This document shows, piece by piece, positions 26,831-48,367 of a DNA stretch of 64,000 nt (positions are counted from its first letter, which is position 1; each line of letters starts with the position of its first letter). Position numbers and translations under genes: made by a program. Under the pieces are notes generated by a model, which was not told the origin of the DNA, did no database searches, and worked only from the letters and a program-made list of their open reading frames with translations. The stretch comes from a virus, in IMG/VR virus record IMGVR_UViG_3300037225_000932, positions 62,001-126,000 of that record, one strand, 5' to 3'.

Positions 26831-27289
26831 TTATTTTTTCCATACACCAATATATTTAACTAATGATGGAAATATAAGACAAATATTATCTTCATTTTGT
26901 GTTGCTTCTATTTTTCTTGATTTTAGAAAATCTACCCAGGCTGGTGTTGGATATAAGAATATCCCTTCTGGAACATCCGAGAAAGTATCATAGTTAAAAA
27001 ATTCATTTTCTTTTCCTACGATTTTTGTTGTCTCGGGATGTTTTTCGTAAATATCTGCAAATTCTTGTAGTATTTTTTTTGCTGACATAGAATTTGAATT
27101 TAATATTTTTATAGATCTTATTGGTTTATACATTGATACCACTTCTCCGTATCCTAAAGCTTTTTGAGGATTTGTAGTAAAAAATGTAGCAGATGAAAAC
27201 CTTGGTTGAGGATTTGGGTCTGGTTTGGGAGTGCCACGATATAAAACAGGAAAATCAACTAAAGATTGAGATAATTTATACCAGTTCAT
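26831..27289 (-). CDS. ADP-ribosyltransferase-like protein with MNWYK tag, 152 aa
   Basis: Start at the ATG giving 'MNWYKLSQSLVDFPVLYRGT'. An upstream ATG at 27316 is possible but would hide the tag. 'VLYRGT' (R near residue 17) and 'SATFFTTNPQKALGYGEV' fit the R-S-E ART fold, where the second block packs on the NAD site. A glutamate motif is less clear. Phage ARTs are often injected to modify host proteins. Whether this one is active is unknown. Confidence 0.55.
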   Translation of the reverse strand: MNWYKLSQSLVDFPVLYRGTPKPDPNPQPRFSSATFFTTNPQKALGYGEVVSMYKPIRSIKILNSNSMSAKKILQEFADIYEKHPETTKIVGKENEFFNYDTFSDVPEGIFLYPTPAWVDFLKSRKIEATQNEDNICLIFPSLVKYIGVWKK

Positions 27290-27485
27290 AATGTGTTTTA
27301 CTGTTAAAAAATACATTTACCTTTAATAATAATAATTTTGCGCAAAATAAAAGGATAACACTATTTTGTCTTGTATTATATATTAAGATATTTAATATAT
27401 TTCTTAAAAAAACAAAAAGGAATATTTTTATTTGTCTTGTATAAATAGATAACATTAAAATATTTTTCAAGGAGAATGATATAAA

Positions 27486-33136: not shown

Positions 33137-33712
33137 ATGAACTGGTATAAATTTTCTCAACAAATAAGCCTTTTTACGGAAGAGATTGAAAGAAAATCTC
33201 CAAAATTACAAATTGGTATGTATAATAGTTTAGGAGAAATGGCTGTATATATAGATGGAAAAAGATATTTATATGAAAAAGTTTCTCCTTTTTTTAAGAA
33301 AAAATTACAAGTTTTTATTGATAAAAAAAACTGGACACAAGCTTTTAAATTATTAAAAAGTTTATCAGAAGTAAAAAAAGAAGCACAAAATAAAACTTTT
33401 TATCCACCCCAATTAAATATGAGTAAAAATGTTATTATAGAAATTGATGTAAAAAAGGCAGATATAGATTTACAAAAAGATACTAATTTTTATGTTGGAC
33501 CACATGCTAAAGGCGGTTTTCCTGAAAAATATAATAAAATAAAAGAATTAGATAAAATAGAAATGCCTTATATGTCAATTGACGAAAATGGACAAGTAGG
33601 ATTTCTAGATGGAAGACATCGTTTTGCTTATCTAAGAGATACTGGACTACAAAGAATACGAATAGTTGTCCCAAAAGATAAAGTAGAAATATTTAGAGCG
33701 AGATATACTTAA
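33137..33712 (+). CDS. MNWYK-tagged protein with KTSC-like and ParB/Srx-like domains, 191 aa
   Basis: Starts 'MNWYKFSQQI'. Residues 25-75 ('GKRYLYEKVSPFFKKKLQ', then 'AFKLLKSLS') resemble the KTSC fold. Residues 100-190 end in 'GQVGFLDGRHRFAYLRDTGL' and 'RIRIVVP', the G-x-H-R core of ParB/sulfiredoxin-like domains. That family binds nucleotides or cuts DNA. Function here is unknown. Confidence 0.6.
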   Translation: MNWYKFSQQISLFTEEIERKSPKLQIGMYNSLGEMAVYIDGKRYLYEKVSPFFKKKLQVFIDKKNWTQAFKLLKSLSEVKKEAQNKTFYPPQLNMSKNVIIEIDVKKADIDLQKDTNFYVGPHAKGGFPEKYNKIKELDKIEMPYMSIDENGQVGFLDGRHRFAYLRDTGLQRIRIVVPKDKVEIFRARYT

Positions 33713-33974: not shown

Positions 33975-34301
33975 ATGAACTGGTATAAAATCGCACAAAA
34001 TGAAACAGAAGATTATCCAGAGGAAAATTTTTCGCAAAAAATAAGATTATGGTTAGATGATGAACGTGATCCTAAGAATCCAGAAATACAAAGGTTATAT
34101 GGAGCCGCAGGAAATGAAATATGGGTAAAAACTGCACCAGAAGCAATAAACTATTTAAACACTAAAAATGTAAAATATATTTCATTAGATCATGATTTGG
34201 GTAATTTGCCAGGAGTAGGATCTGGATATGATGTGGCGAAATATATTGAAAAAAAATGCTTTCTTAAACGAAATATCACGATTAGAATGGAGAGTTCATA
34301 G
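33975..34301 (+). CDS. Cyclic-phosphate-processing receiver-like protein, truncated by an A8 frameshift
   Basis: Starts 'MNWYKIAQNE', then 'IRLWLDDERDPKNPE', 'VKTAPEAINYLNTKNV', 'YISLDHDLGN' and 'GYDVAKYIE', the DDER and DHDLG blocks of the receiver-like domain linked to cyclic-phosphate RNA processing. At eight A residues (34249-34256) the frame shifts and ends early. With seven A's it would read on to 34383 with 'WRVHSQNPSGARNM', the family's final H-S-x-N-P-x-G motif. Real mutation, slippage or sequencing indel are all possible. Confidence 0.65.
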   Translation: MNWYKIAQNETEDYPEENFSQKIRLWLDDERDPKNPEIQRLYGAAGNEIWVKTAPEAINYLNTKNVKYISLDHDLGNLPGVGSGYDVAKYIEKKCFLKRNITIRMESS

Positions 34302-34369
34302 TCAAAATCCTAGTGGAGCAAGAAATATGATTTTGGCTTTACAGAATGCTAATAGATATTGGGACAAAA

Positions 34370-36790
34370 ATGAACTGGTATAAATTATATAGTGTAGAAT
34401 ATTTTCTTAAATTAGCAGCAAAAATTGCTGACATAAACGAATTAAAAGCGTGGAACGACTCTTTCTCTCTATCTCCTAATGACAACAAGTTGATGCCACT
34501 TAGAAATATTCTTGGTAATATAATAAAACACTTAAATGAAGCTTCTTATATTTTTAAGGTTGGAGTAAGAAGTCCTGATCCGACAATTTCTCAAAAAGCA
34601 GCAGAAATCTTTCCTGATATAGCTAATATAGAAACTCTTCATAATACCATAAAAACTACACAGTCTTTATTAAATAGGTTAGAAAATAAAAACACTCCTA
34701 TATTCCAAGTTATTTACAATATGCTCTATGCTATTTCTAATATGAATTTTAGTATAGAACAAAAAGAACAATTTAGACAAATTGCTTCTGGAAGTTCACA
34801 ATCGGCCCCCGAGTTTGCTGATGAAGTAAATGCTGACAGAATGAATAGATTTTTACAATCTTCTATTTATTCCACAAGAGATGCTTCGGCAAGATCTCTA
34901 AGGGTTATTAGAGAAGTTTTACAAAATTCAGCAGATGCCGTTATGAAACAAAGGGGATTAGATCCAACTAATCAGGTTAGAATTGACATATATACAGTTC
35001 CCAATCAAGATAATACTACTATGGATTTAGTAGTATCAGATAGTGGAACTGGTATGGACTGGAATACTCTTTCCAGAAAATTCTTTGTTTATTTTGAAAG
35101 TGGAAAACAAGAAGATGTAGAAGCCGCTGGTGGCTTTGGTATAGCTAAGGCTTTAATTCAAGAGGTTCCACAAGAAGGTTGGTCTATAGACACTAGTGGA
35201 ATACATTCAAGTAAATTTCATAAAAATATGTACATGGGAACACCTAAATCCGTTCAATACTCTGCTCCCCCTTCGATTGTTCAAAGCGGAAAAGGAACAA
35301 CCTTGACTCTCTATGCTATACCTTTTGTTTATAACTCTTCTATATTAGATTTAGCAAACAAATATGCTACAAATGGTATATTAAAAATATCAGTAAATAA
35401 AGAACCGGCTCAACCTACATTTTTATTAACTCAGCTAAAGCCTATAGGTGGAGGATTTAGTGGATTGTCTGATGAAATAAGCGAAACTCAATCAGAAAAA
35501 GATGTAGCAAATGGAGTTTTATTACTTAGTGAAGAAGGTTTACTACCAGAAAAAGGGAGATTAGATTTTAACGAAGAGGGGACAAAAACATCAGTTCAGT
35601 TCTTTTGTAAAAAAACTAGTTATTCTGGAAGATTTTATGTATTCTTAAATAATCAATATCAATTTGATAGAAACTATATTCCAAAAGCAAATATAATATG
35701 TAATATAATGACTAATACTCGTCCGGGAACTGAATTGTATCCAGTTGATCCTGGTAGAGAAAATCTTAGAGAACCATATAAAACTCAAATAGAAGAAATA
35801 GAAAACAAATTAGAAGAAACTTTAAAAAAAATATCTGAACATATGTTATTCAAAGACGGTTTAAATATTGTTATGTTAAATCAAAATGCCGTTCCAATGT
35901 CAACTGGAGAATCAGAACAGCACGAAGGAGAAGAAGGAACTGGTCTTCGTAAAGCAATAGAGGAAGCTCAACAAAGTGTTTTTGTTGAAGGTCTATTTGG
36001 ATCTCCTCAAGAACAAATATCTAAGATACTAAATAAATCATTAGAAAATATAGAATTAGAACCTGAGCAAACTCAAGTATTACAATCCATAATAGATACT
36101 ATACAATATGAAGATGACGAAAGAATAGATGTTAAAGATAAGATTGGAGAAATTATTGATGGATTAATAACTCCAGCCGCAATAACAGTTCAAAAAAACT
36201 TCGTATCTGCTGATATAGTTAGAGCAAGAGCTAATCTTACTTCTAATATGATGATATTATGGCAAAGAGTATTAAAGATAATAACAGCAAAGATATCTCA
36301 TAGTAGTTTTAAGAGATATGGAAGTAAAAAGTTTATTCCTGGCATTATTTTTTCAGATGAAGCTTTAGCTTTATATATGCCACCCAAAGAAGGACTTAAA
36401 CACCATGCTGTTATGGTAAATCCCATTGTGATGGCCTCTTTAATTGATCCTGATCTATTTAATAAAATCTTAGGAGACCAAGCTGGTTCGGGACAAAAAG
36501 CAATAAAAGAAAGTGGATCGTCAAACTATGCTAGTGAAACTCCAACAAATAAATTGACGGTTTTCTTGTTTCATATAGCCATTCACGAACTGGTTCATTT
36601 AATGTTTCCAGATAGTTATGGATATGATGAGTTTCATTCATATATATCAAAAATGGAAGCTATTTGTCATTTTGACTTTACGAAAGTAAGAGATGTGGTT
36701 AAAGATTTCATGCCAAGAGTAAAAAGAGATGCGCAAAAACTCATAAGAGCAATAGGTAAAGATAAGAGAAAACGATTAAAAAATCAGTAA
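34370..36790 (+). CDS. GHKL (Hsp90/MutL-type) ATPase with C-terminal HExxH metalloprotease-like region, 806 aa
   Basis: Start chosen at 'MNWYKLYSVEYF'. ATPase motifs are complete: N-box 'REVLQNSADAV' (about residue 180), 'VVSDSGTGMD' (222) and 'GGFGIAKAL' (253). About residue 740 comes 'FHIAIHELVHLMFPD' and then 'YDEFHSYISKME', an H-E-x-x-H zinc-protease signature with a later acidic site. The combination resembles no phage protein I know. The start overlaps the end of the frameshifted receiver frame. Confidence 0.75.
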   Translation: MNWYKLYSVEYFLKLAAKIADINELKAWNDSFSLSPNDNKLMPLRNILGNIIKHLNEASYIFKVGVRSPDPTISQKAAEIFPDIANIETLHNTIKTTQSLLNRLENKNTPIFQVIYNMLYAISNMNFSIEQKEQFRQIASGSSQSAPEFADEVNADRMNRFLQSSIYSTRDASARSLRVIREVLQNSADAVMKQRGLDPTNQVRIDIYTVPNQDNTTMDLVVSDSGTGMDWNTLSRKFFVYFESGKQEDVEAAGGFGIAKALIQEVPQEGWSIDTSGIHSSKFHKNMYMGTPKSVQYSAPPSIVQSGKGTTLTLYAIPFVYNSSILDLANKYATNGILKISVNKEPAQPTFLLTQLKPIGGGFSGLSDEISETQSEKDVANGVLLLSEEGLLPEKGRLDFNEEGTKTSVQFFCKKTSYSGRFYVFLNNQYQFDRNYIPKANIICNIMTNTRPGTELYPVDPGRENLREPYKTQIEEIENKLEETLKKISEHMLFKDGLNIVMLNQNAVPMSTGESEQHEGEEGTGLRKAIEEAQQSVFVEGLFGSPQEQISKILNKSLENIELEPEQTQVLQSIIDTIQYEDDERIDVKDKIGEIIDGLITPAAITVQKNFVSADIVRARANLTSNMMILWQRVLKIITAKISHSSFKRYGSKKFIPGIIFSDEALALYMPPKEGLKHHAVMVNPIVMASLIDPDLFNKILGDQAGSGQKAIKESGSSNYASETPTNKLTVFLFHIAIHELVHLMFPDSYGYDEFHSYISKMEAICHFDFTKVRDVVKDFMPRVKRDAQKLIRAIGKDKRKRLKNQ

Positions 36791-47050: not shown

Positions 47051-48367
47051 CTATGTTAATAGCTGTAGGAGAAACAGTAAAAAAAGCATTATATCATTTT
47101 TAGATAACAATCTTAATTGCTGATTTATGATATCTTTTACTAATAAAAGATCGTTGGAAGGTATAACATTTATCCTGTATGCTACAGAATAGTTATAGTT
47201 TCCGTTTAATAAATATTTAGTCCATAAGTCTTTTCTTTCATCTTCACTTAAAAGATTTTCGTATAATAAATCGTATTTTTCTACTTCCATTTGATATGAA
47301 CTTTTTAATACTGTTTTTATTATGTTATCTTTAATGATAGGAAATATTTTTTCTGTTATTTCTTTTGCTATATCTGGTGGTAATTGCTTTGTGCAATTAA
47401 ATATTTTATTAAATATAAAGAAGGTTGGAATATTGGTTACAATATTGAAAAAGGCTTTAATAATAGCGGCTTTTGTAATTTCTTTATTGTAATTTAGTAA
47501 CTTATTTATTTCTTTTTTTCCTATAAGATCAGCAATGTATGTGATATCAACTGTTAAGTTCTCTATTGCTAATATTTTGGCTTCTAATAATATGTCTTTT
47601 ATCTTTTTCTCGTTTTTTCTTTTTTCTAATACTTCTGGATCTTTATAGGCAAGATTTTTTAGTATTGTTATATTATTAGTATCAGCAACTGTTTTAATAT
47701 CGTTCCAAGTTTCAAAGTGTTGTTCTTCTTCTGGATATTTTCCTTCTGGTAATGGTAAACTTATAACTTCTCTAATATATTTTGCATTTAATAATAAATA
47801 TGTTGTGTATTCATCATTTTGTGCAGAATTGTTTATAAAAGATATGATTTTGTCTATTTTTTCCAAATCACTAATATTTTTATTATCAATTAGGTTAGAA
47901 ATTGTATTTGTTAAGTGAAATTCATTGTATGTGCCTTTTACTCCAAGCAATACGTCTTTAACTTCTGTTAACATATATAGAGGAATTTGTAAAACTAAAA
48001 TGATAGGTAATGATTTTAATTGACTAGCACTTCGATTAGCATAGTAGTTGGCATATGAAGAACTTGTGGTATAAAAAATTTGGTCTAAACCTTGACTTCT
48101 TTCTTCTCTTATACCACTATCCATTCTTGGATGCCCTTTTGTTCCAGTAGCACTAATTATATATCCATTTGATAGAATTTTATCATAAAGAGATTGACAG
48201 GTGCCATGAAATAAAGTCATTTTAACATCAAGGCTTTTTATGTAATTGTAAAATCTTATACCTGATTTTTTACGTTCTACATTAGTATATTTTCCCTGAC
48301 CAGGATTTTTTATGTATCTTTGGGGTTTCGCTATAGGAAAATCAGCTATTTTAGTATACCAATTCAT
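47051..48367 (-). CDS. ADP-ribosyltransferase-like protein with MNWYT tag, 438 aa
   Basis: 'MNWYTKIADF' then 'MTLFHGTCQSLYDKILSNGY' and 'IFYTTSSSYANYYANR' give the H-G-T and Y-T-T-A-x-x-Y-A blocks of the H-Y-E branch of ART folds. The rest is helical, without family. It overlaps the PAS gene directly upstream, so both are likely cotranscribed. Partner of the other ART-like protein at 26831. Confidence 0.5.
   Translation of the reverse strand: MNWYTKIADFPIAKPQRYIKNPGQGKYTNVERKKSGIRFYNYIKSLDVKMTLFHGTCQSLYDKILSNGYIISATGTKGHPRMDSGIREERSQGLDQIFYTTSSSYANYYANRSASQLKSLPIILVLQIPLYMLTEVKDVLLGVKGTYNEFHLTNTISNLIDNKNISDLEKIDKIISFINNSAQNDEYTTYLLLNAKYIREVISLPLPEGKYPEEEQHFETWNDIKTVADTNNITILKNLAYKDPEVLEKRKNEKKIKDILLEAKILAIENLTVDITYIADLIGKKEINKLLNYNKEITKAAIIKAFFNIVTNIPTFFIFNKIFNCTKQLPPDIAKEITEKIFPIIKDNIIKTVLKSSYQMEVEKYDLLYENLLSEDERKDLWTKYLLNGNYNYSVAYRINVIPSNDLLLVKDIINQQLRLLSKNDIMLFLLFLLQLLT

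Follow-up and report, generated by a model that had tools for sequence, protein, structure and literature searches.

The stretch of DNA analysed here (the window, 64,000 nucleotides) corresponds to positions 62001-126000 of the IMG/VR virus record IMGVR_UViG_3300037225_000932, which is 173,351 bases long and, as it carries a portal-protein gene and tail-fibre genes, belongs to a tailed phage. Positions 34370-36790 of the plus strand encode an 806-amino-acid protein in which, as its sequence, profiles, an alignment and an orthologue (L218) indicate, an Hsp90-like GHKL ATPase is fused to a zincin-like domain with the motif HELVH. The ATG start is the one chosen in an earlier note on this DNA, and a longer open reading frame (ORF) from 34346 is possible. 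The GC content by codon position is 0.43/0.34/0.18, typical of coding DNA of an AT-rich genome. The protein opens with the leader MNWYK (34370-34384), followed by a helical region (residues 6-145; 34385-34804) that was matched to no family and is also present in L218.

ATPase and Middle Region

The N (ExxxN..D), G1 (DxGxGM), G2 and G3 boxes of the GHKL superfamily follow one another in order in the 806-amino-acid protein, as REVLQNSADA (residues 181-190, with E182, N186 and D189; 34910-34939), DSGTGM (residues 224-229; 35039-35056), the G2 box and lid GGFGIAK (residues 254-260; 35129-35149) and GT (residues 309-310; 35294-35299). The earlier note had read the first three as complete, which they are, and the G3 box can be added to them. 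In an alignment of 37 sequences the N, G1 and G2 boxes, G3 (G309), an arginine of the middle region (R463) and HExxH are invariant. Pfam detects only the ATPase in the protein, through HATPase_c (1.9e-5) and HATPase_c_3 (1.3e-4), both slightly short of the curated cut-offs. With this protein left out, a profile of relatives still detects its ATPase (3e-26) and middle region (2.6e-7). The ATPase branch of the protein is very long in the tree, and its placement is unsure.

The N-terminal and middle regions resemble those of Hsp90. In a fold search with the structure model, the top 50 PDB matches all belonged to the Hsp90 family (E down to 6.6e-10, over about 400 columns), and nearly all the best PDB matches of a profile search by sequence were members of the same family (Endoplasmin, TRAP1, HtpG). 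About 275 residues past the N box, 58 of 60 phage relatives carry the motif YP[F/I]..(N/S)R(Q/E), which reads YPVDPGRE here (35738-35761) and contains R463. The Hsp90 middle domain carries a catalytic arginine loop, and from the order of the elements, the motif and the fold match we infer that YPVDPGRE is its equivalent; the profile-profile alignment to HSP90 spans the N (ATP-binding) domain only and ends before this loop.

As a GHKL protein of a phage, it might instead be RIIA-like and act in lysis inhibition or exclusion, the HExxH being incidental. RIIA is its best phage family in PHROG (3e-4), and its sole annotated matches in the phage database are two Alishewanella phage rIIA proteins (32% over the ATPase). 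However, the RIIA-type proteins of T4, Alishewanella and Microbacterium phages have no HExxH, which disfavours such a function, and their G2 box reads GGFGLGSKSP (T4) or GGYGLGSKSP (Alishewanella) against GGFGIAK here. We regard this explanation as very improbable. Membership in RIIA was rejected for the same absence of HExxH, together with a profile match limited to about 80 residues and the absence of the G2 signature GxGxGSK. PADLOC defence models gave only weak partial matches to the 806-amino-acid protein (0.003 and 0.014) and identified no known defence system.

Co-inheritance of the ATPase and HExxH

When the complete protein served as a single-sequence query against IMG/VR, nothing matched, while the ATPase fragment retrieved a 2271-amino-acid phage protein (L011) with an LPD38 domain and an HExxH about 475 residues past its ATPase. 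The first IMG/VR profile search used an alignment of the ATPase and middle region only (residues 145-499), which contains no HExxH. Sixty of the 62 loci that it found have an HExxH 414-631 residues downstream, and the remaining two run off their contigs. Where the downstream segment is complete, HExxH occurs in 59 of 59 cases against 0.63 expected from shuffled segments, and HSP90-family control proteins taken from a genome scan have it in 0 of 27; the pairing is therefore not due to chance. In a second search, which started from stand-alone forms, 38 of 43 loci had HExxH, many of them compact stand-alone proteins, among which are some of 444-1035 amino acids in phages of up to 316 kb. Early MAFFT alignments placed the zincin of the polyvalent relatives wrongly, and the 37-row alignment was used instead. 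It is thus strongly supported, at the level of sequence, that ATPase, middle region and zincin form a conserved, co-inherited module, and the joining of a GHKL ATPase to an HExxH protease-like region, proposed in the earlier note, holds and recurs across the family.

Zincin-like Domain

A linker modelled with low confidence (residues 493-612; 35846-36205; predicted local distance difference test score, pLDDT, below 50) leads into the zincin-like domain, which the model and profiles place at residues 614-806 (36209-36787). Alignment and profile show conserved strands (GIIF...LALYMPP...HHAVMVNP; 36341-36424) running into the catalytic helix, and HELVH (H739, E740 and H743; 36584-36598), found in the sequence and alignment and matched in L218, is modelled on a helix with a pLDDT of about 87 beside the expected strands, the arrangement of a zincin. 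It lies about 480 residues past G2, close to the 500 given in the earlier note, and the DEFHSYISKME also reported there occupies residues 753-763.

A zincin profile made with 79 relatives, from which the 806-amino-acid protein and L218 were excluded, matches the C-terminus of the protein at E 3.6e-8; together with the profile matches to the ATPase and middle region, all three parts are recovered in their order. In Pfam, 23 of 37 zincin relatives score as WLM and 20 of 37 as YgjP-like, and some score as SprT-like; their best PDB match by sequence is Wss1p (0.0018). These profiles place the C-terminal domain among the WLM/YgjP-like zincins, although Pfam finds no zincin in the 806-amino-acid protein itself. 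A second, small zincin-like ORF of the same phage (HEIAHALVGTSH; L009) lies outside the window at genome positions 145989-146465 on the minus strand and also matches the zincin profile.

MutL and MORC clamps close on DNA, and Wss1 and SPRTN remove DNA-bound proteins. The WLM scores of the relatives, the Wss1p match and the SprT-like members could thus fit a protease for DNA-protein crosslinks or nucleoid stripping, with the clamp closed on DNA and the proteins bound there stripped off by the WLM-like zincin. Against this, the N-terminal and middle regions match Hsp90 and not MutL, MORC or gyrase, and no DNA-binding domain was found in the fusion protein; we consider such a function rather unlikely.

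The metal site departs from that of most relatives. Ten residues after the first His, the relatives from the polyvalent search have the third ligand as His (56/60) or Glu (4/60), and those from the stand-alone search mostly as His, with more variation. The 806-amino-acid protein has a tyrosine at the aligned position, Y750 (HELVHLMFPDSYGYDEF), within the region FPDSYGYDEFHSYISKME (36605-36658), so that the third His of WLM, YgjP and SprT proteins is missing. L218 is 37% identical over its length, has HEVTH and keeps the tyrosine (HEVTHFLFPDASYDMVNF). A sequencing error was rejected on this ground; since L218 retains both HExxH and Tyr, the change is real and old and HExxH is constrained. At positions 3324-3473 of L218, an in-frame stop by a run of A splits N-terminal codons from the main frame. 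Because a tyrosine stands in place of the usual third zinc ligand, catalysis by this protein is uncertain: D748, H756 or E763, which are also conserved in L218, may replace the ligand, or catalysis may have been lost.

In the latter case the zincin of this branch would be a pseudo-protease, serving as a client-binding arm of the Hsp90-like clamp. The replaced ligand in both orthologues and the missing Pfam match speak for it, whereas the retention of HExxH in both proteins despite 63% divergence, the nearby Asp748, His756 and Glu763 as possible ligands, and the variation of the third ligand in other family members speak against it. We judge a pseudo-protease to be somewhat unlikely.

Occurrence in Phages and Cells

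The pairing of ATPase and zincin occurs in about 100 uncultivated phage contigs and a few bacterial megaplasmids, where it is annotated at most as 'ATP-binding protein'. The statement in the earlier note that no phage protein of this architecture is known thus stands for annotations and the open-access literature, but the protein is not unique. In that literature we found no description of a GHKL/Hsp90-like ATPase with a zincin (subscription journals and preprints lay outside the search).

In most phages of the first search the module sits inside proteins of 1,300-3,900 amino acids. Four of the giant proteins scanned contain LPD38 (L011, L027, L030 and L085), and L027 also has ART-PolyVal; by their domains the giant proteins are polyvalent proteins as described before (PMC5512222). 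The 806-amino-acid protein carries this module only and lacks the several effector domains of a polyvalent protein. Since polyvalent-protein zincins have been proposed as processors of these proteins (PMC5512222), and since the module lies within such long proteins in many phages, the zincin might cut polyvalent polyproteins, the stand-alone form being an excised remnant or acting in trans. Yet stand-alone forms of 440-1035 amino acids are frequent in phages and plasmids, with no polyprotein there to cut, and the need for an ATPase would be left unexplained, which makes a processing module distinctly improbable.

Stand-alone forms were found in phages and on megaplasmids of Rhizobium, Methylorubrum and Bosea, and two Pseudomonas megaplasmids carry a shorter one. 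Terminase_6N had no match on the four megaplasmids tested, and a phage-plasmid nature is therefore unsupported. The two similar Bosea plasmids (L123, 709 kb; L124, 692 kb) have, besides the GHKL-zincin gene, their own gyrA (gyrB was seen on one) and encode a polymer-forming cytoskeletal protein, a lytic transglycosylase and an integrase. One stand-alone form lies in a Thalassospira chromosome, adjoining DNA methyltransferase-like ORFs. No further copy was found in a sample of 385 genomes of its class, so the module is rare in cells.

Genomic Neighborhood and the MNWYK Leader

The gene lies just downstream of the tail genes and is preceded by two small ORFs with the same MNWYK start, one of which encodes a cREC (cyclic-phosphate receiver) domain protein. 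The cREC gene (33975-34380, plus strand) has an apparent frameshift near 34290, and its probable C-terminus continues in a different frame, where it overlaps the start of the GHKL-zincin gene. The leader MNWY[K/T/F] is common to about ten ORFs of the phage that are otherwise unrelated. Those in the window are at 26831-27316 (minus), 33137-33712 (plus), 33975-34301 (plus), 34370 (plus; the gene studied here) and 47051-48367 (minus), and others start at genome positions 12188, 13597, 14768, 14988 and 16444. The ORFs at 26831-27316 and 47051-48367 look like ADP-ribosyltransferases (LYRGT...FFTTN, by eye), the PARP match of the latter (E 0.008) being below the cut-off.

Of 47 portal-related phage records, 20 contained a DNA pattern for MNW[YF]K, with 48 occurrences in all and 15 in a single 122.6-kb contig, whereas its reversed control did not occur at all. 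It precedes unrelated proteins, which by eye are nucleotidyltransferase-like, DnaJ-like, kinase-like and ADP-ribosyltransferase-like. The string 'MNWYK' is absent from the open-access literature searched. Since the internal proteins of T4 bear a capsid targeting sequence, we suspect by analogy that MNWYK is a targeting or virion-packaging leader. In the right part of the window, which looks poor in genes, alternative genetic codes were tried and rejected, as they gave no long frames; the region consists of small genes.

Proposed Mechanism

By sequence and model, a zincin of the WLM/YgjP group occupies the place of the Hsp90 C-terminal domain: where the dimerisation domain would be expected, it is the zincin profile that matches. 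With moderate confidence, we read the protein as an Hsp90-like clamp, encoded by the phage, into which a metallopeptidase-like domain is built and in which ATP would gate the feeding of client proteins to the metallopeptidase. ATP binding would lead to dimerisation and close the clamp around a client, the middle-domain arginine would drive hydrolysis, and the zincin would cleave or hold the client offered to it by the closed clamp. In the giant phage proteins the module would ride in injected polyvalent proteins. Here it forms a separate late-region protein, whose leader, common to other accessory proteins, may be a label of effectors that are packaged in virions or targeted in some other way.

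Besides the tyrosine at the third-ligand position, several results weigh against this reading. The overall pLDDT of the model, made from the 37-row alignment, is low (59.7), although the ATPase, middle and zincin cores reach 70-86, and the isolated zincin-domain model had no significant PDB fold match, zincins included. L218 has no MNWYK leader, nor does the leader occur elsewhere on its 161-kb contig, and L218 adjoins dUTPase- and thymidylate-synthase-like ORFs, not tail genes. Finally, 47 portal-related phages gave no match to the 806-amino-acid protein, in a search without a positive control among them, and the protein therefore looks dispensable.

The protein is probably an accessory or conflict factor of the phage, likely to serve in taking over host proteins early or in defending against them. 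Such phage proteins often target host defence, and a counter-defence role is plausible from the context only. The label 'chaperone-protease' fits the fusion protein, given the Hsp90 matches of its N-terminal and middle regions and the WLM/YgjP scores of its relatives. More tentatively, it may be a GHKL/Hsp90-powered ATP-dependent protease, one of a class of energy-driven proteases that would be spread among phages and megaplasmids, have an Hsp90-type clamp in place of an AAA+ ring, and be delivered or expressed so as to eliminate particular host proteins. In the well-known ATP-dependent proteases a peptidase is coupled to an AAA+ ring, and the recurrent union of an Hsp90-type clamp with a zincin suggests another coupling of ATP to proteolysis or client remodelling. 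The family is broad, with about 100 phage loci and plasmid-borne forms, and its smallest members, from 444 amino acids, are fit to express and solve.

Comparison with Known Systems

With the Hsp90 family (HtpG, GRP94, TRAP1) the protein shares the GHKL N domain and probably a middle region with an arginine loop in the corresponding place. It differs in its G2 box and lid GGFGIAK, in about 140 extra N-terminal residues and in the HExxH zincin that replaces the C-terminal dimerisation domain. Like the WLM/YgjP/SprT-like metallopeptidases (Wss1, SPRTN) it has HExxH, which in most relatives is followed some five residues later by a third His, whereas here the domain is fused to a GHKL clamp and a tyrosine takes that position.

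The zincin-like metallopeptidases of phage polyvalent proteins (PMC5512222) also have HExxH, and relatives of our protein occur in polyvalent proteins with LPD38 and ART-PolyVal. In contrast, the zincin described here is preceded by an ATPase module and the 806-amino-acid protein stands alone. The text of that study on polyvalent proteins mentions neither GHKL, Hsp90 nor HATPase, and a GHKL domain can be added to the catalogue of polyvalent-protein modules.

RIIA proteins are likewise phage GHKL ATPases, with variable C-termini, and have been suggested as counter-defence factors (PMC7824862). T4 RIIA is the nearest annotated phage GHKL protein, set apart by the G2 box and the HExxH as discussed above. 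In the GHKL-Shedu defence protein VcSduA, a GHKL clamp has been proposed to control a fused effector enzyme (PMC12137116). Its effector is a PD-(D/E)xK nuclease of a bacterial defence system, while the phage protein has a metallopeptidase-like domain; by analogy, VcSduA may be considered its nearest functional parallel.
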